DNA of 64,000 nt from Sphingorhabdus sp. 109 (GTDB lineage: Bacteria > Pseudomonadota > Alphaproteobacteria > Sphingomonadales > Sphingomonadaceae): assembly GCF_902506555.1 (NCBI RefSeq), contig NZ_LR732707.1, positions 1,889,138-1,953,137 on the forward strand, in the 5' to 3' direction. The position numbers and the translations under genes were made by a program. A model generated the notes under the pieces. The model made no database searches, was not told where the DNA came from, and saw only the letters and a program-made list of their open reading frames with translations. This document shows, piece by piece, positions 9,489-63,999 of the stretch; position 1 is the stretch's first letter; each line of letters begins with the position of its first letter.

Positions 9489-10109
9489 GTGAACAGCAAG
9501 GCAAGCGCCATCGTCGATCGCATCCGCGGGCTTGAAGCGGAGCTTGAAATGCGGATCGCCGAAGAACGGGCCGAGATGGGCGAGCGGCTGGACAAGGGCC
9601 GGGCGGAACTCGACCGCGATCTCGAGGCGATGCACCGGTCGCTGCGTGTCGGTGTGCTGCGCTATATATCCGAGGCGCAACTGTCCGTGATCCTGACAGC
9701 GCCGGTCATCTATGCGCTGCTGCTGCCCTTTGCCTTTCTCGACCTGTCGGTCTCCATCTATCAGGCGATCTGTTTTCGCGCTTACGGGATCGAACGGGTC
9801 CGGCGGCGCGATTATATCGTCTATGACCGCGGGAAATTATCCTATCTGAACGCGATCGAGAAGATCAACTGCACCTATTGCAGCTATGCCAATGGCGTCA
9901 TCGCCTATGTCCGGGAGGTCGCCGGACGCACCGAGCAATATTGGTGCCCGATCAAACATGCGCTGAAGGTCGGCGGCCAGCACAAGCGGCAGCGCCTGTT
10001 CGAGGAATATGGCGACGGCGCGGACTATCGCCAGCGTCTGACCAGACATCGCGATGCGCTGAAAACGGACGAAAAGGCGGAGAGACGGGACAAGGACCCC
10101 GGACTATGA
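9489..10109 (+). CDS. Conserved membrane protein with coiled coil and Cys motif
   Basis: A 206-residue protein of unknown function. The first 60 residues are a charged, probably coiled-coil helix. They are followed by one long hydrophobic stretch (about residues 75-100, VILTAPVIYALLLPFAFLDL). A soluble part then contains CTYCSYANG and a later WCPIKHA, a possible Cys-based metal or redox site facing one side of the membrane. The C-terminus is strongly charged. The GTG at 9489 follows an AGGAGGA Shine-Dalgarno (9475-9481). The preceding ABM gene is on the same strand 67 bases away. Confidence 0.7.
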   Translation: MNSKASAIVDRIRGLEAELEMRIAEERAEMGERLDKGRAELDRDLEAMHRSLRVGVLRYISEAQLSVILTAPVIYALLLPFAFLDLSVSIYQAICFRAYGIERVRRRDYIVYDRGKLSYLNAIEKINCTYCSYANGVIAYVREVAGRTEQYWCPIKHALKVGGQHKRQRLFEEYGDGADYRQRLTRHRDALKTDEKAERRDKDPGL

Positions 10110-33272: not shown

Positions 33273-34226
33273 TCAGAAAACCCAGTTCAGCACGATCAGA
33301 TAGACTGCCGACAGGACAATCCACGTCCCGTCCAGCGTCTTCAGCCTTTTCGCCCCCAGCCACAGGGCGATCGGTCGGGCAAGAAAGGCGCCGACCACCG
33401 CGCCCGGCCCGGCCAGCAGCACGATCTCCCACGCCACCGTGTCCATCTCGATATGCCAGACGATACCGACCAGCACGCTGATCGAGGAAATGACGCAGGC
33501 GGTACCGGTGCACAACAGCACCGGATAATGGCGGATGAACAGATAAAGCGCGACCAGCTCCCCCACGCCGACCGAGAAAAGCGCGGTCAGCGCACCGCCG
33601 GGGATCGCGATCAGCATCAGGATCAGCAGGTCGATCGTCTCCAGCCGCGCCCGCTCCGCCCTTTTGTGGTTGATCGTCCAGGTGGTGATGATCAGCGCGA
33701 GGCCGAGAAAGATCGAGAAAATCTTGTAGCCGAGCAGGATCATCTGCCCGTCGACCACGGTCAGCCGCTGCATCGCCAGCAGTGCCGGCAGCGCAAAGGC
33801 GAGCACCGCCCCGATCACCAGGGCAAAATCGCGCGGCCGGACCCGGACATAGCCCGCGCCCGCCGCGCCCGCATCCGGCTGGTGCAGCAAACGATCGGCC
33901 CAGCGCAGCCCGCCCATGGTCATGCCGAAACACTGGATCGCCATCGACGCGGCGGTGACCCGCAGCGGATCGAGCGCCATGACCCCGTGCTCGCGCAGCC
34001 CGTTGAACACCGGCACAAACACCACCCCGCCCCCGGTCCCCGACGTATTGGCAATCACCGCAGCCAGAGCCCCGATGCCGGGCAGAAACCAGAGCTGACC
34101 CAGCAGAGCGGGGTCGTAAGTCGCGAAGAGCAGGATGGCGATATAGGGCGCGAGCAACACGGCAGCCCCCCAGATTACGAGGCGGCCTGGCGCCGGTACT
34201 GTGGATTTAGGGTGGGTAGTGGTCAT
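33273..34226 (-). CDS. TauE/SafE family sulfite exporter-like permease
   Basis: A 317-residue membrane protein with about eight hydrophobic segments. Two TauE half-repeats are visible: GIGALAAVIANTSGTGGGVV followed by FVPVF, and LLILMLIAIPGGALTALFSV followed by GVGELVALYLF. Members export sulphite, sulphoacetate or related anions. Here the first repeat begins inside a longer N-terminal extension. The AT-rich restriction-like island starts about 290 bases upstream; that gap (34227-34516) holds no gene I can support. Confidence 0.85.
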   Translation of the reverse strand: MTTTHPKSTVPAPGRLVIWGAAVLLAPYIAILLFATYDPALLGQLWFLPGIGALAAVIANTSGTGGGVVFVPVFNGLREHGVMALDPLRVTAASMAIQCFGMTMGGLRWADRLLHQPDAGAAGAGYVRVRPRDFALVIGAVLAFALPALLAMQRLTVVDGQMILLGYKIFSIFLGLALIITTWTINHKRAERARLETIDLLILMLIAIPGGALTALFSVGVGELVALYLFIRHYPVLLCTGTACVISSISVLVGIVWHIEMDTVAWEIVLLAGPGAVVGAFLARPIALWLGAKRLKTLDGTWIVLSAVYLIVLNWVF

Positions 34227-34516
34227 GCGGTGGCGTTGGCGAAAGGCGGGGTGCGATGCAAGGGGTTATCGGGTGGGGGTGAGTGGCTTGTTTCGGGAGG
34301 GGGCAGTTGCGGTGAAGGTGGGCTAGTTGGATTCAGCCTTTATCCAGGTTTGGATCGCACTGCTACCTCAATACGTGAAGTTCGGAGTTAGAAGATGTTG
34401 AACTATTTTCTAGATGAGGAGCGAAAAGAAATTCCAGACGACCTAATCCTTCTGTCCAGGGACTAGCTAGGAAGCGGTGACTAACAATGAACTGCGCAGT
34501 ATTCTTTGAAGAGGGC

Positions 34517-36868
34517 TTACAAAGGAGCGCGCTCCTTTTCCACTTGCTCAGCGGACAACCTTTTTTGCAGATTTGAATCTGATCCAAGTACTAGCCAATC
34601 ATGAACAGAAGCAACATAGTCCGCATCATCCTTACCCACACTATACTCGTGATCAGTAATGTTTCGAATCCGGTTTAGTTCGGTTAGCCAACCAGTTTTT
34701 TGTTCTTTTTTCAAACCTTCTTGGCCTGGGATTGTATACTGCTTTTGAAACAAAGTACTCCATTGAGCCTGATGCATCATGATTTCGCGTAGGTGAATCA
34801 AGTTTAAGCAATCCCATGGAGTTTTCTCATCTTCTTCGTTTTCTATAGTTCTATTTTTTTTGGCAGCATCGGTCACCAGTCCAGTATACAACTTTTCTGA
34901 CAGCCCCTTTTTTAACCACATACTTCCATGCTCTTTCTGAAGCACCTCTTTAACATCGTCACGTAGTTTTGTTTCAATATCTAATATTCTTGAATACGTT
35001 TCAATATTGTATTGCTTGGACTGATCACGCCAATATTCTTCCAGTCCCTCTGGCTCGAAATCATTCCTAAACTCTTGCACAGCCCGTTGAAAGATCCTCC
35101 TTAGTCGGGTGGGAGCACCACTCCCGTACTTACTTCGCAGTTCATTGCGCTCATCATCTGTCAAATTGAGGAAATATGGCTTTAATCCGTCCACATATGT
35201 ACTTAATTTGTCAATGATTTGATCTGGCGGATCTGCGAGCGGTGAAATCTCGTCCTTCTGGATCATGTGCTTCACAATATCGCCAAGAAGCTGAATCTGT
35301 GCAGTGATGCCGTCATTAATCGTCAATATGCCGCCGTCTTTTTGCAAGCGATCCCATTCACTAGGCATGCTGTCTTGAACATATGCAAAATACCCGATGA
35401 GAATCTTTTTTATTAAATTGAGTGTCTTAGCACTATCTCCAAGATTAAAAACACCTTGCTCTTTAATCTCATCCTTAGTGAATCGACCGACAAATGGAGT
35501 CTGGTTCAACCCTCTTAAAATGGCATCTAATGTGATTATTTTCGTTTCTGTTCTTTGGTCTTCGCCAACCAAAACCCTATTAAAGAGGGGGGAGGCTATG
35601 TCCTCGCCAAGTTCTTGGCATAACTGCTTCTTGATGCCTTCCCCTCGATCCTTTAAGTTAGTAGAATCCCATTTGAGGTCTGCATCAAGCGTATGCTTAA
35701 GGTTTTTCGAAACTGCTTTCTGATTTTCATTAATCTCCATAAACAGTCGAAGCTGTTCGTTGCGGTCTAAATCCACAAATGCCACGACCGGAATGGTATT
35801 GTTTTCCGAATATTGACTTTCGCTATAACCATAAAGGCGATGCTGGCCGTCAATCAGATATAGAGAGCGCAACTTATTCGGAAGGTGTAACACTCCCATT
35901 TTACTTTGAGATTCATTCAATGAAGGCGCAGACTGCTCAAAACGTATCTGCTTTCCTTCGTTTTCAATGCTAACAACTAAAGAATTTGGGAAATACCCAC
36001 CATTGTTGATAAATTTTCGGATCTGAGAGAGCCGGTTTCTTTTTATTAGTCTTTGATAACTAGGCAGAACCCTAATCGATTTCGACCTATGCAAAACATA
36101 GCCTAGCTTCAACAATCTCTCGGGTTCAATCAAAAAGGTATAATATGGAAGTCCACCCATAGAACCTTGGACGGCATAGACCCGACCGTCCAATTCTGGA
36201 ATATTTTGCCGTTGGAAAATATCTGCCTCAAACTGGTATCGTGCGGCGGTGCCTAGGTGTCCAACCAGCTCTTGATAATACTCCAAATCTACTTCAGAAA
36301 AATGCTGTATGTTGAACGAAGCTAGCCGATCAATGTCAGCGTCTCTTAATGTGTAATTCTTCGTAGCCAAAAGATAAGCAATCTTCAAATCTGGCTTATT
36401 AAATCGTTTTCTAATCTCACGATGAAGTCCGGGCTTTTTACCACCTAAAGATTCTATTGCGGTTTTAAATGTGGCTACTTTCGAAGTGGGTCCACTCGCG
36501 CATTTACATTCGATTACCAACGCACACTCGTCATCGACGGCTAGTACATCAATCTGCTGACTGGCGCCGTCTTTCTTGTCGTACTTAATCTTCAAATAGC
36601 GATCTGCAGATAGATAACGGAAACCAAGCTTTGACAACAGCGCCCAAACTTCATCTTCAAAAACTTCATCACTTGGCTTATTTTTAGCAAGCTTTACGTC
36701 TCGCTTGAGTTTATCGTTGAGCACATACCAACCGTCCTCAGGCTCGGCAAATTCTATCTTGCGAACTTTGCGTTCCACAAAAGGTTTCGATCGATGCCGT
36801 AAGATTGTTTTCTGATCTTCTCGATCAGCGATCAGTTCTGAGAAATTTTCATCATCCAGAACAGCCAT
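34517..36868 (-). CDS. PD-(D/E)XK nuclease-like / DGQHR / HEPN-like fusion protein
   Basis: A 783-residue soluble protein on an AT-rich island. Residues about 65-200 resemble a Mrr/PD-(D/E)XK nuclease: helix FEDEVWALLSKLGF, then D107 (QQIDVLAV) and E120-C-K122 (ALVIECK). The centre is a DGQHR domain, with DGQHR at 340-344 and LRLFMEINENQKAV at 373-386, as in DndB-type proteins of phosphorothioation systems. Near the C-terminus LNRIRNITDH (731-740) gives the R735-x4-H740 pattern of HEPN RNases. The ATG at 36868 abuts the stop of an adenine methyltransferase. I infer a restriction or abortive-infection effector; the HEPN call is the least certain. Confidence 0.72.
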   Translation of the reverse strand: MAVLDDENFSELIADREDQKTILRHRSKPFVERKVRKIEFAEPEDGWYVLNDKLKRDVKLAKNKPSDEVFEDEVWALLSKLGFRYLSADRYLKIKYDKKDGASQQIDVLAVDDECALVIECKCASGPTSKVATFKTAIESLGGKKPGLHREIRKRFNKPDLKIAYLLATKNYTLRDADIDRLASFNIQHFSEVDLEYYQELVGHLGTAARYQFEADIFQRQNIPELDGRVYAVQGSMGGLPYYTFLIEPERLLKLGYVLHRSKSIRVLPSYQRLIKRNRLSQIRKFINNGGYFPNSLVVSIENEGKQIRFEQSAPSLNESQSKMGVLHLPNKLRSLYLIDGQHRLYGYSESQYSENNTIPVVAFVDLDRNEQLRLFMEINENQKAVSKNLKHTLDADLKWDSTNLKDRGEGIKKQLCQELGEDIASPLFNRVLVGEDQRTETKIITLDAILRGLNQTPFVGRFTKDEIKEQGVFNLGDSAKTLNLIKKILIGYFAYVQDSMPSEWDRLQKDGGILTINDGITAQIQLLGDIVKHMIQKDEISPLADPPDQIIDKLSTYVDGLKPYFLNLTDDERNELRSKYGSGAPTRLRRIFQRAVQEFRNDFEPEGLEEYWRDQSKQYNIETYSRILDIETKLRDDVKEVLQKEHGSMWLKKGLSEKLYTGLVTDAAKKNRTIENEEDEKTPWDCLNLIHLREIMMHQAQWSTLFQKQYTIPGQEGLKKEQKTGWLTELNRIRNITDHEYSVGKDDADYVASVHDWLVLGSDSNLQKRLSAEQVEKERAPL

Positions 36869-37699
36869 TTAAAACACCCCTAAATTAGTAAAAAGTAGTT
36901 CCTTTATTGAACCTCGCTGTGCTCTTTTCCCGCCAATCAAATTTGCCCTGTCCAGCTCAATGCAATTATCCCCCATTTCAAATATCTCTCTCACCTTATC
37001 ATGAGCCGCATTTGTAAGAATATAACTAGCCCCCAAATCCTTGATTATTCTTATGTATTTTGAAAGTCTATATTGATCTTCTAGGGAAAAAAGAGATTGG
37101 TTATATTTGATGAATCCGTTATTGTTATGAGATACCGTATACGGTGGATCTAAAAAAACCAAATCACCAGGCCCTATATCATCAATAGTGTCCATAAAGT
37201 CGCAGGATTTCAAAGTGCAGTTCTGTAAAGCTGCAGCAGCACTTTCTAGAGTAGATTCATCGAGAAATTTTTTAGACCTATGTCCGTAAGGGACGTTGTA
37301 TTTGCCCTTGAGGTTGACTCTATAAAGTCCGTTAAAGGATGTTTGATTCAGGAAAACGAAATGGGCGGCCCGTTCAAATCTACAATCTGACTTTGCCTCT
37401 CTTATACGGTAATAATCACTTTCTGTATTATCCAGAGAACGCATTTCTTCAATGACTTTAGCGTGATTTTCTTTCAGGCATTGGTATACTTCAATTAGCG
37501 CTTCATTTTTATCGGAGAGACAGGCTTTTTGAAGTGGGCCAAGTGAGAAGAAGAAAGCGCCCCCACCGACAAAAGGTTCATGATAACACTCAAACTCCAA
37601 GTTCCTGAATATTTGATCTGACTTTCGTGCAAGCCACGTCTTCCCACCCGCCCAGCGCAAAAACGCTTTTCCTGTTGGTGAATCCAATTCCCCGTGCAT
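36869..37699 (-). CDS. D12-class (Dam-like) N6-adenine DNA methyltransferase
   Basis: A 276-residue methyltransferase. FLRWAGGKTWLARK and the SAM-binding HEPFVGGGAFFF (motif I) come first, and FLDPPYTVSHNN is catalytic motif IV (DPPY). FLNQTSFNGLYRVNLKGKYN is a Dam-family recognition-region pattern, but the target cannot be read (GATC is possible). The ATG at 37699 with GAGAG upstream is preferred; a TTG at 37780 would add 27 residues without homology. Its TAA stop is immediately followed by the ATG of the nuclease/DGQHR gene. AT-rich codon use points to horizontal transfer. Confidence 0.88.
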   Translation of the reverse strand: MHGELDSPTGKAFLRWAGGKTWLARKSDQIFRNLEFECYHEPFVGGGAFFFSLGPLQKACLSDKNEALIEVYQCLKENHAKVIEEMRSLDNTESDYYRIREAKSDCRFERAAHFVFLNQTSFNGLYRVNLKGKYNVPYGHRSKKFLDESTLESAAAALQNCTLKSCDFMDTIDDIGPGDLVFLDPPYTVSHNNNGFIKYNQSLFSLEDQYRLSKYIRIIKDLGASYILTNAAHDKVREIFEMGDNCIELDRANLIGGKRAQRGSIKELLFTNLGVF

Positions 37700-37804
37700 T
37701 TTATACTTAACTCTCTTCTTACATATCACCTGAAGAACACTGAATACAGCTTCCCGTGCCGTGCATTCGTGGTAGACCAAATCTTTAGACCGATAAAAAT
37801 AAGT

Positions 37805-39625
37805 CTAACCCGCAACCACACCCGCAACCAACCCCCGCACACTATTCCCCACCAGAAACCCGCCCGCCAGATCCGCCGCAGTCAGGTCCGTCTCGACCGC
37901 TTGCCCGCTCTCCAGCAGCTCCGCGCGCAGCACGCCCGATAATAGGCCCCGGCCCAGAGGCGGCGTCAACAGCTTGCCGTCGCGCTCGACGAAGATATTC
38001 CAGATCGCGCCTTCGGTGACATAGCCCTCGCCATCGACGAAAATCGGGTGGACGCCGTCGGCCAATCCATCGACCGCGTAAACCCGCCGGTCGCTGGTCT
38101 TGTGGTGCAGGCGGAAATCCGCCTTGTCGGCCTGCATCGGCACCAGCCGGCATGGCACCGGGCCGTCCGGCGGGGCGGGCATCGGTTTCAGCTCGATCGC
38201 CAGCGCGCCGGACTGGCCGAGGTGCAGGCGGACCATCGCCGGGCTGTCCTGATGAAAAGTGATCGCCTGGATCGCGTTGCGGGCGGCGTGGCGGTCGAAT
38301 TCGAAGTCCTGGGTCGCGGCGCTGGTCTTCATCCGTTCCAGATGCGCTTCCAGCCGGGCGATGCCGCTGGCGGGATCAAAGGCCATGGTTTCGATCAGAT
38401 CGACCTTATGGCCGCCTTCCGCATTGGCATCCACTTTCGCAAATCTCCCCTTGGCGAGGCATTCCCGCCACTCGTCTTCCCCGTCCGAGTCCGCCACTAT
38501 GCCAGAGCCGAGGCCGATGGAAAGCGTTTCTTTGCCCTCTTGCAGGAAGAAGGTGCGGATCGCGACATTGAAGGCGGCGTCGGAGCGGCCCTGTGCGTCG
38601 GGCGCGTCGATCCGGCCGATCGAGCCGCAATAGATGCCGCGCGGGGCGTGGTCGGCGGGGGAGCCCTGGGGCGCGCTTTCCAGCTCGTCGATAATCTCCA
38701 TCGCGCGGATTTTCGGGGCGCCGGTGATCGAGCCACAGGGGAAAATCTGCCTTATTATGTCGACCGCGTCGAGCCCGTCCTGCAGCTGCGCGGTGACGGT
38801 CGAGGTCATCTGGTGGATGGTCGGATAGCTTTCGATATGGAACAGCTCCGGCACGGCGACGCTGCCGCGCTGCGCCACCCGCGACAGGTCGTTGCGCAGC
38901 AAATCGACGATCATCAGATTTTCCGCGCGCTGCTTCGGGTCGCTTTGCAGATGGTCCTGCACCGCTGCGTCGGCTGTCGGATCGGCAACACGCGCGGCGG
39001 TGCCCTTCATCGGCTTCGCGGTGATCCGGCCGTCCTTCAGCGCGAAGAACAGTTCCGGCGAGAAGGACAGCATCCAGTTGTCGCCGTCGAACACGACGCC
39101 GCCATAGCCGGCCTGCGCCCGGTCCCTGATCGCGGCATAAAGCGCCAGCGGATGTCCGGAAAAGTCCATTTCCGCGCGAAAAGTGAGGTTTGCCTGATAG
39201 ATATCGCCATTGTTGATATAATTTTGTACCTTTTTGAACGCCGCTTCATAAGCGTCGCGCGAGATCGAGGGTTTCAGCCGCCCGAGCCAGGCCCCGTTGC
39301 GGTCGGGCAGAGATTCTCCCACAGATTTCTGCGTTATCTCTTTGTAATCCTGAAATATTCCAAACCATGCCAGCGGGGCGGGCAAATCCGCCGGCATTTT
39401 GCCCCGCAACCGCGCCTCCAGTCCGAGCCCCGCCTCATAGGACAGATAGCCCGCCACATGCTGCCCCGCCGATCGGGCCCGCGACAGGGCGGCAAAACAT
39501 GCTTCCAATTCTTCCATTTTGTCGGCCCGGATGACCGCCACCGGATCGCTGTAAAGCCGCGCTGGCGCTGCATCACAGGCCCGGGCATCGTCGAGCAGGA
39601 CAAAGGGAGAATTTCCATCGAACAT
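37805..39625 (-). CDS. pabB: Aminodeoxychorismate synthase component I fused to ADC lyase
   Basis: A 606-residue fusion for 4-aminobenzoate in folate synthesis. Residues about 1-370 are the chorismate-binding PabB part (AFKKVQNYINNGDIYQANLT, KPMKGTAARV, PCGSITGAPKIRAMEIIDEL). Residues about 400-606 are a class IV aminotransferase-like PabC part (FVDGEGYVTEGAIWNIFVE, GRGLLSGVLRAELLE) that releases pyruvate from aminodeoxychorismate. Such PabBC fusions are common in alphaproteobacteria. The AT-rich methyltransferase island begins 105 bases after its stop. It is divergent from an S9 peptidase gene. Confidence 0.93.
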   Translation of the reverse strand: MFDGNSPFVLLDDARACDAAPARLYSDPVAVIRADKMEELEACFAALSRARSAGQHVAGYLSYEAGLGLEARLRGKMPADLPAPLAWFGIFQDYKEITQKSVGESLPDRNGAWLGRLKPSISRDAYEAAFKKVQNYINNGDIYQANLTFRAEMDFSGHPLALYAAIRDRAQAGYGGVVFDGDNWMLSFSPELFFALKDGRITAKPMKGTAARVADPTADAAVQDHLQSDPKQRAENLMIVDLLRNDLSRVAQRGSVAVPELFHIESYPTIHQMTSTVTAQLQDGLDAVDIIRQIFPCGSITGAPKIRAMEIIDELESAPQGSPADHAPRGIYCGSIGRIDAPDAQGRSDAAFNVAIRTFFLQEGKETLSIGLGSGIVADSDGEDEWRECLAKGRFAKVDANAEGGHKVDLIETMAFDPASGIARLEAHLERMKTSAATQDFEFDRHAARNAIQAITFHQDSPAMVRLHLGQSGALAIELKPMPAPPDGPVPCRLVPMQADKADFRLHHKTSDRRVYAVDGLADGVHPIFVDGEGYVTEGAIWNIFVERDGKLLTPPLGRGLLSGVLRAELLESGQAVETDLTAADLAGGFLVGNSVRGLVAGVVAG

Positions 39626-62295: not shown

Positions 62296-63999
62296 TTAGC
62301 GGCCCTGAGCTCTCCAGCGCTTGATCACGCGCTGGACAATCTCTTCCTCGCCGCCATGTTCGCGCCAGAGATCGGAGAATATCGGGTCTTCCGAAGCAGG
62401 GCGACGTTCCTCGGCAAGCGTATCCAGCGAAACGCGGATCGGAATCGCGACACCTTCGCCACAGCAAATGACTTCGCGATTGCGCAAGGCTGGGATGGAA
62501 TCGAGAAAACCGCGCGCGCCCTCGGGCATCGCGGCTTTCACGAAAGCCTGGTCACGATCGTTATTCAGACGCATCGACAGGATCGTACCGCATTGCGAGA
62601 GCACCCCTTCGGCGAGATCCGACGGGCGCTGTGTGATCAGCCCCAGAGACACGCCATATTTACGGCCTTCCTTGGCAATCCGGCTGAGAATATCGCGAAC
62701 GCTGCTTTCCTCGGAAACATCGTCATTGGGAATGTAGCGATGCGCCTCTTCACAAACCAGGAGCATTGGTCGTTGGGGCTCGTTGCGCGCCCATATTGCA
62801 TAGTCGAATACCAGCCGGCTGAGCACGGAAACCACAGTCGGTGTGATTTCGGACGGCATCGCCGAAACATCGATGATTGATATCGGCTTTCCTTCGGATG
62901 GCAGTCTGAAAATCTTGGCAAGAAACGCCGCCATAGTGTCCCCGACGAGCATGCCGGAGAACATGAAACTATAGCGCGGATCGGCCTTGATTTCATCGAT
63001 TTTCGATTTCAGTCGCTGGTAAGGCGCACTGTTTGTCGCCTTGTCGAGCTTGCCCATTTCATTCTGCAGGATCGTTGTCAGATCGGACAGCAGATAGGGG
63101 ACCGGTGAGTCCACCGTCAGCTTGGTGCCGCCGGTTGCTCCTTGACTCTTGGCTTTTGCCGCCAGCAGACATTTGGCCAGAATATCACAGTCCATCTGCT
63201 TGGCATCGCCCTTGGACTGGACAAATACTTCACAATGTTCGCGGAAGTTCATCAACCAGTAGGGCAGATTGAGATTGTTCACATCGAATAATTTACCGTT
63301 ACCCTTGAAGGCGGCTGAATATTCACCGTGCGGGTCAATCATCAAAATATGGCCTTCGGGTGCAAGATCGCATATTTTGTGAAGGATCAGAGCTGCCGCT
63401 GTCGACTTACCGGTACCGGTCGATCCTAGAAGCGCAAAATGCTTGCCGAGCATGGCGTCGACATAAAGCGCACCGCGGATATCATCGGTCGGATAGACGG
63501 TACCAACCTCGACGTTAGCGCGACCGTCGGAGGCATATATCTGTTTGAGGTCGGCCGTCGTGACGGCAAAGACCTCTGAAGCGGGTGTCGGATAGCGGGT
63601 GACGCCGCGGCGGAAATTGTAGATCTGGCCGGTCAGTTTTTCTTCGTCACCTTCGCCGAGAAAATCGATCTCGGCGATCACCAGTCCGGACTGGCCTTCG
63701 AAAAGGCGCTGGGTCCGGATATTGGCTAGCAACCAGGTTTGGCCAACGCGTATCTTAACCTGGCTACCAACCTGCCCCGCGGTTTTGATGGTCGGGTCCA
63801 CATGGTCCTGAAGTTGCGCAAGCACTGCGGTATCCATAAGGATTTTTGATCCGGAGCCGGCTATTTCGATCACCTCGCCGATTTTATAGCCTTCACTACG
63901 CTGCGAAGGGGCCCCCTGGTTCTCCTCCTCCAGCGTTGCAATTTCGGCCTCCGCGAGAGGTGTGGCGGCGGGGAAATTATGAGAACCCATATCGGACAT
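62296..63999 (-). CDS. HerA-like DUF87 ATPase
   Basis: A 567-residue hexameric-type ATPase. An N-terminal HAS-barrel-like part (about 30-150) is followed by Walker A GSTGTGKST (192-200) and MIDPHGEYSAAF. Walker B is in RPMLLVCEEAHRYIPN, and GLITQRPSDLAEGVLSQCGT is the sensor region. HerA proteins translocate DNA and usually pair with a nuclease; none is visible here, and the upstream neighbour is outside the window. The start at 63999 is the first ATG in view (another at 63990), so a longer N-terminus cannot be excluded. Confidence 0.85.
   Translation of the reverse strand: MSDMGSHNFPAATPLAEAEIATLEEENQGAPSQRSEGYKIGEVIEIAGSGSKILMDTAVLAQLQDHVDPTIKTAGQVGSQVKIRVGQTWLLANIRTQRLFEGQSGLVIAEIDFLGEGDEEKLTGQIYNFRRGVTRYPTPASEVFAVTTADLKQIYASDGRANVEVGTVYPTDDIRGALYVDAMLGKHFALLGSTGTGKSTAAALILHKICDLAPEGHILMIDPHGEYSAAFKGNGKLFDVNNLNLPYWLMNFREHCEVFVQSKGDAKQMDCDILAKCLLAAKAKSQGATGGTKLTVDSPVPYLLSDLTTILQNEMGKLDKATNSAPYQRLKSKIDEIKADPRYSFMFSGMLVGDTMAAFLAKIFRLPSEGKPISIIDVSAMPSEITPTVVSVLSRLVFDYAIWARNEPQRPMLLVCEEAHRYIPNDDVSEESSVRDILSRIAKEGRKYGVSLGLITQRPSDLAEGVLSQCGTILSMRLNNDRDQAFVKAAMPEGARGFLDSIPALRNREVICCGEGVAIPIRVSLDTLAEERRPASEDPIFSDLWREHGGEEEIVQRVIKRWRAQGR

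Follow-up and report, generated by a model that had tools for sequence, protein, structure and literature searches.

We analysed a 64,000-nucleotide stretch of the Sphingorhabdus sp. 109 genome (contig NZ_LR732707.1, positions 1,889,138 to 1,953,137 of the forward strand; hereafter the window), in which an AT-rich insert carries two genes, here called M and Q. They encode a Dam-like DNA methyltransferase and a protein predicted to join a nuclease, a DGQHR domain and a HEPN domain (Table 1). The TAA stop codon of M abuts the ATG of Q with zero gap, and M would be 276 residues long if read from its ATG. Measured in 500-bp windows, edge windows excepted, G+C is 0.37-0.43 in the insert and 0.53-0.69 in the rest of the 28-44 kb region. 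Homology of the flanks to locus L131 of the same genus stops at about 34269 and restarts at about 37827, and the segments 34201-34520 and 37691-37860 share no 9-bp repeat, direct or inverted. An earlier reading of this DNA from its letters alone (the original prediction) had given these gene coordinates and motif positions, the junction and the AT-rich insert, all of which were reproduced on re-checking. The flanking genes it named were likewise recovered by family matches, as TauE (PF01925, 1.2e-13) and a PabBC-type fusion (Chorismate_bind, 1.2e-79, with Aminotran_4, 1.5e-27).

Table 1. Features of the M-Q insert, in positions of the window.
Feature	Position	Strand	Basis
AT-rich insert, bounds approximate, conserved flanks either side	34270..37826	.	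G+C drop and flank homology
M, Dam/DpnM-like D12 adenine-N6 DNA methyltransferase (putative); from ATG at 37699, alternative TTG start 37780	36869..37699	-	PF02086, TIGR00571, DpnM 2dpm
Q, predicted nuclease-DGQHR(ParB/Srx)-HEPN protein, 783 residues	34517..36868	-	Open reading frame, family matches, structure model, fold comparison
Predicted PD-(D/E)XK nuclease domain core, Q residues 60-200	36269..36691	-	
Putative nuclease catalytic motif D107...E120-x-K122	36503..36550	-	Alignment conservation
DndB/DGQHR domain, ParB/Srx fold, Q residues 232-400	35669..36175	-	
DGQHR motif, residues 340-344	35837..35851	-	Invariant, 81/81
Probable HEPN (Swt1-like) domain, Q residues 609-761	34586..35044	-	PF18731, 1.1e-5, isolated part
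Putative HEPN motif R735-N-x3-H740	34649..34666	-	End of helix 726-739 and next loop in model; R 67/81, H 67/81

Q is predicted to begin with a PD-(D/E)XK nuclease fold at residues 2-222, followed at 233-384 by the DndB/DGQHR domain, which has a ParB/Srx fold, and to end in a HEPN domain of the Swt1 type. Structure prediction, which had been proposed as a check, placed a PD-(D/E)XK fold in the N-terminal part; fold comparison of the model, with matches that include FokI/BspD6I, agrees with the residues D107, E120 and K122, as had been predicted. The middle domain gives a ParB/Srx fold match and exceeds two curated cut-offs, DndB PF14072 (2.9e-17; 63.2 against 29.1 bits) and TIGR03187 DGQHR (5.9e-45; 154.1 against 58.85 bits), which confirms the DGQHR domain proposed earlier. 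D107, E120-x-K122, DGQHR, FMEINENQKAV and RNITDH (735-740) all stand where they had been read. Every row of a 46-row alignment has D107, K122, DGQHR, R735, N736 and H740, and at least 90% of the rows have E120; a wider, 81-row alignment keeps DGQHR in all 81, D107 in 77, E120 in 75, K122 in 72 and R735 and H740 in 67 each. The structure alignment drew on 81 proteins, a subset of those found. Judged from these alignments, the motifs are conserved and are not chance occurrences.

Weak family matches, together with the motif, support a HEPN identity for the C-terminal domain. In the structure model this domain is all-helical, with an R-x4-6-H motif whose R735 and N736 end helix 726-739 and whose H740 lies in the next loop. 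Q matches HEPN_Swt1 at 1.4e-4 and NERD at 0.0084, both under the family cut-offs, and 36 of the 64 C-terminal parts of relatives match HEPN_Swt1 at E<=0.01. The B model of the PADLOC candidate PDC-M34, for which a literature search found no published description, also matches the C-terminal part (1.1e-7). Sequence searches of the PDB with the Q protein, its profile and a C-terminal profile returned weak, unrelated-looking matches only, and a Pfam search gave no DpnII-family match in Q.

M belongs to the D12/dam family (MethyltransfD12 PF02086, 1.8e-45; dam TIGR00571, 1e-60), and its top match in the PDB is DpnM 2dpm (4.4e-43). It also matches the PADLOC model MTase_II at 9.5e-85, which places it among Type II methyltransferases.

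The pair recurs widely. In a large protein database, Q has 3116 matches at E<=0.001 among the 7998 proteins scored. The genome loci sampled are the 80 best of 382 confirmed ones, so that near relatives are over-represented; in 66 of the 80 the gene immediately upstream of Q, in the same orientation, is a D12 methyltransferase, a recurrence for which the original prediction had proposed a search. The gap is at most 50 bp in 65 of these 66 and the genes overlap in 47, a count that is an upper bound since frames were taken from the first possible start; frames of fewer than 100 residues were ignored. Four more loci have an adjacent D12 methylase in another arrangement and five have one within a few genes, and a methylase gene of some kind occurs in the neighbourhood of Q in 77 of the 80. 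L004 carries an MT-A70 methylase directly upstream and L066 a D12 homologue about 4 kb upstream, while L034 and L064 begin at a contig end. This recurrence rules out chance juxtaposition of the two genes. Distances among M and Q proteins are correlated (r 0.448 for 59 pairs; none of 2000 permutations exceeded 0.206), and the Dam-like methylases from Q loci make up one side of a branch (58 rows, support 90/99) in a 78-row methylase tree. In the Q tree, phyla mostly form coherent groups; its 87 rows leave out L064 (identical to L063), the truncated L034 and L077 and the short viral matches L087-L091, include L092, L094, L144 and L145 as additions, and do not place L152 and L157-L161. The family is rare in the genome samples. 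Counting the starting genome in each case, a Q spanning most of its length was found in 3 of 385 genomes of the window's class (plus four short matches) and 2 of 398 of its phylum (plus four with the central domain only, at E<=1e-20), and Q matches at E<=1e-40 occur in 4 of 391 and 3 of 395 genomes of two other classes.

The surroundings of Q in relatives include several known defence systems. M and Q are in none of 13 same-genus relatives within the 7.4-8.2 kb stretches compared at this site, where TauE lies near pabBC in L131, L132 and L134. One of these relatives (genome G009, locus L132) carries at the same site an AT-rich Hachiman cassette (HamA-HamB) with a DUF3223 gene, at L132 3373-7287, so that the insertion site looks like a defence hotspot there. 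Five loci have Q within DpnII GATC restriction operons: L033, with the order methylase-DpnII-Q-DpnA-like (DpnII PF04556, 1.9e-94); L044, L053 and L065, assigned the same order by blastp to L033; and L159, from a genome of Clostridium's class and not of Bacteroidota, with the order DpnA-DpnII-Q and no D12 methylase in 5.3 kb. In nine Bacillota loci, DrmB-like and NERD-helicase genes precede M and Q. DISARM models identify the preceding 1131-residue gene of L039 as DrmA (1.6e-136) and its 636-residue gene as DrmB (7.9e-44); for the other eight, the match is confined to the DrmB and helicase genes of L039. Near Q, L071 and L073 carry a methylase from a third D12 group together with PtuA/PtuB (Septu), PtuAB being recognized by models in L071 and by blastp in L073.

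Natural variation in Q bears on what its two putative effectors do. A script scored the nuclease as intact from D107, an acidic residue at 120 and K122, and HEPN as intact from R-x3-6-H, in alignment columns. Outside the DISARM-like loci, 35 of 78 Q proteins have both motifs intact, 25 have lost the HEPN motif, 18 the nuclease motif and none both; when K122R is taken as intact, the numbers become 41, 25, 12 and 0. All nine Q proteins of the DISARM-like loci have lost both. On the tree, the HEPN losses call for about 4 changes and the nuclease losses for about 14. The pattern fits two redundant effectors. It also speaks against Q being a DndB-like regulator of the methylase operon whose nuclease domains are decaying, which we regard as extremely unlikely: catalytic motifs are kept across distant phyla, and all 78 Q proteins outside the DISARM-like loci retain at least one.

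Tight pairing with a probable self-marking enzyme, two catalytic folds and a putative nucleotide-binding middle domain point to the mechanism that we propose. At a probability of roughly 0.6, M-Q would be a two-gene restriction-modification-plus-abortive-infection module against phage, consisting of a self-marking methylase and a nucleotide-gated two-effector protein. M would methylate adenine in host DNA at a GATC or GATC-like site as the self-mark, and the DndB/ParB-fold middle of Q would act as a switch that holds Q inactive. DNA without the mark, or marking blocked by a phage, may be the trigger on which the switch releases the effectors; the PD-(D/E)XK domain would cut DNA, and the HEPN domain, as a second line, would cut RNA and stop the infected cell. 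Self-marking, DNA binding, switching, cutting, trigger and protection, like the nuclease, nucleotide and phage activities, are what we infer for M-Q, and Q would be modification-sensing, as the original prediction suggested. Published work, as far as the sources are available, lends some support. The ParB-CTPase fold binds CTP, ATP or GTP depending on the protein, with ATP and GTP bound by a DndB-like one, and requires the Box II arginine for nucleoside triphosphate (NTP) binding (PMC12704722); modelling has tied the DGQQR motif of GmrS, related to DGQHR, to NTP binding (PMC4619093); and HEPN domains fused to restriction subunits have been proposed as reversibly held suicide RNases (PMC3710099).

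Several observations weigh against this proposal. M differs from Dam and DpnM at the positions equivalent to EcoDam K9, R137 and Y138, so GATC is not certain as its site. The predicted HEPN domain is favoured by the weak matches and the motif, but the PF18731 gathering cut-off of 27.5 bits is reached neither by whole Q (22.6) nor by its isolated C-terminal part (26.1). L003, whose contig stops 133 bp downstream, has no methylase upstream of Q, and no methylase adjoins Q in the plasmid relatives L092 and L094. None of the ten flanking genes in the window has a defence-family match at E<=1e-5, the HTH-only matches of a LuxR-type regulator excepted, so the pair stands alone there; the expected defence setting is seen in relatives, with Hachiman, DpnII, DISARM-like and Septu genes. 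The nine DISARM-like loci form a single clade, and the relatedness of the Q proteins leaves the double-loss pattern statistically unproven: an independent-pairs sign test gives a median p of 0.5, while the plain Fisher value of 0.0004 ignores relatedness. Lastly, the class of the partner methylase changes at least nine times on the Q tree (classes were assigned by hand to 80 of the 87 rows, using blastp and family matches, and group D12b is not a single clade in the methylase tree), and a variable target-recognition segment in Q matched to the methylase was rejected, the correlations being too weak to claim one: windowed partial correlations of Q with M run from -0.30 to 0.26, with the maximum at residues 241-290 against whole M. 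Since the methylase class changes and no Q segment plainly matches it, Q need not read the site of M.

With no plainly matched change in Q, these class changes argue against an ordinary endonuclease fitted to the methylase site; they favour a looser sensing, either of methylation or of system state. In an orthodox Type II restriction-modification system, Q would be the cognate endonuclease for the M site and its DGQHR and HEPN parts would serve DNA binding or structure. The tight M-Q coupling, the PD-(D/E)XK fold with its FokI/BspD6I matches, the DpnII-type context of some Q genes and a weak extra partial correlation of 0.25 between Q residues 661-770 and the putative recognition segment of M would all suit such a system. 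However, DpnII itself already supplies a site-specific cutter in five Q loci, and 18 of the 53 Q proteins outside DISARM-like loci that keep the HEPN motif have lost the nuclease motif. Moreover, L071 and L078 have Q proteins that share 51-94% identity when compared in 50-residue segments, whereas their nearby methylases are of different classes, although that of L071 may belong to Septu. We judge a Type II system to be distinctly improbable.

A second-line guard in the manner of PrrC, which would have no restriction activity of its own, would watch the methylase or restriction system and trigger abortive infection when that system is blocked, riding on DpnII, DISARM-like or Septu systems. The association of Q with several kinds of other systems, the changes of methylase class and the PrrC precedent (PMC3710099) speak for it. 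Yet 60 of the 78 Q proteins from other than DISARM-like loci retain an intact nuclease motif, which suggests that Q cuts DNA itself, and no other restriction gene is present among the ten flanking genes of the window, the neighbours at other loci not having been scanned systematically; we think a guard unlikely. Tentatively, and still on the doubtful side, Q might instead be a portable nucleotide-gated DNase and RNase that senses loss of adenine methylation by any methylase and joins a lone Dam-like methylase, DpnII, DISARM or Septu, with two redundant domains that both decay where the host system does the killing.

Modification-dependent restriction of a Type IV or Pgl-like kind would have Q attack modified DNA as GmrSD does, with M as a regulator or as the maker of the target. 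It draws on the relation of DGQHR to the DGQQR domain of GmrS (PMC4619093) and on the position of some relatives beside DpdB-like genes. Next to such an enzyme, however, a constantly present self-methylase would presumably mark the host, and the coupling of M and Q is very tight; we hold this explanation to be very unlikely. Q is not a GmrSD protein by domain content, its four Pfam matches at E<=1 including neither DUF262 nor HNH (GmrD).

Comparison with known systems shows partial likeness to several. The DndB, DpdB and DGQHR family shares the central domain of Q, but DndB is part of phosphorothioate systems and DpdB of deazaguanine systems, and Q has two further domains and scores far under the equivalog cut-offs (29.9 against 328 bits for DndB, 70.8 against 300 for DpdB). 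DpnII-type GATC restriction-modification resembles the pair through the top PDB match of M and the operons that contain Q, yet the window pair has neither DpnII nor DpnA next to it. DISARM is linked to the nine Q-M pairs that follow DrmB-like and helicase genes, with DrmA and DrmB confirmed by models in L039, whereas the window pair has no DISARM genes beside it (no Drm match for M, Q or the ten flanking genes, to which the scan was confined) and the DISARM-linked Q proteins have lost both motifs. PD-lambda-5, a tested compact 'RM+Abi' system, is similar in that M matches PADLOC PD-Lambda-5_B at 4.6e-13, but its description, in the part available, includes no DGQHR domain (PMC9519451). Membership was rejected, as PD-Lambda-5_A is not among Q's four PADLOC matches at E<=1.

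Both Novosphingobium plasmid matches are pNL1, whose Q relative is 30.8% identical over 91% and has no methylase beside it. We take SARO_RS17535 to be Saro_3948, as a guess. Like Q, Saro_3948 joins a ParB-fold domain to a Swt1-like HEPN domain, and it was tabulated as a ParB-HEPN(Swt1) fusion in 2013, in an entry that, as far as the table is available, names no PD-(D/E)XK domain and no methylase pairing (PMC3710099, Table 1). The original prediction that the architecture is not a named system thus stands in part: the ParB-HEPN fusion has been on record since 2013, and a literature search that left most subscription papers and all preprints outside found no description of the Q-M pair. Nor was an earlier description found in that literature of the three-domain Q, its coupling to D12 methylases across phyla or its links to DpnII, DISARM-like and Septu genes. 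A 2025 survey of the NTPs and domain fusions of the ParB-CTPase fold does not mention HEPN in the available part of its main text (PMC12704722).

If the proposed mechanism is true, M-Q would be a two-gene system spread over several phyla in which a single protein, controlled by a nucleotide switch of the ParB/DndB type, unites restriction-modification with abortive infection; it would also place many DGQHR proteins in a functional context. How the work is divided between the domains can be tested directly with the natural variants, in which the nuclease, the HEPN domain or, next to DISARM-like genes, both are dead.

Some further observations concern individual loci. In L003, a 72-residue frame at 9786-10004 occupies the place of the methylase and overlaps the start of Q by 4 bp. 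The distant plasmid relatives, on pNL1 (L092 7866-18145) and a Rhizobium plasmid (L094 4329-14717), have a recurrent but different set of neighbours: a DGQHR gene, a radical SAM gene, two ATP-binding genes and a PIN-like gene. L010 (12328-13434), L012 (12923-14101) and L049 (12807-13994) each have, beside the M-Q pair, an additional DGQHR gene that stands alone and encodes 369-396 residues; the one in L010 is DpdB-like by model. L039 1-9183 has a UvrD/GajB-like gene ahead of the DISARM core genes, the NERD-helicase, M and a catalytically degraded Q, and the Septu-linked stretches are L071 6157-9972 and L073 12339-15334. GATC occurs 514 times in the window outside the insert against 221 expected, and 20 times against 13 inside it, which has no bearing on mechanism. 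A HerA-type ATPase gene (DUF87, PF01935, 1.5e-46) lies at 62296-63999 of the window.

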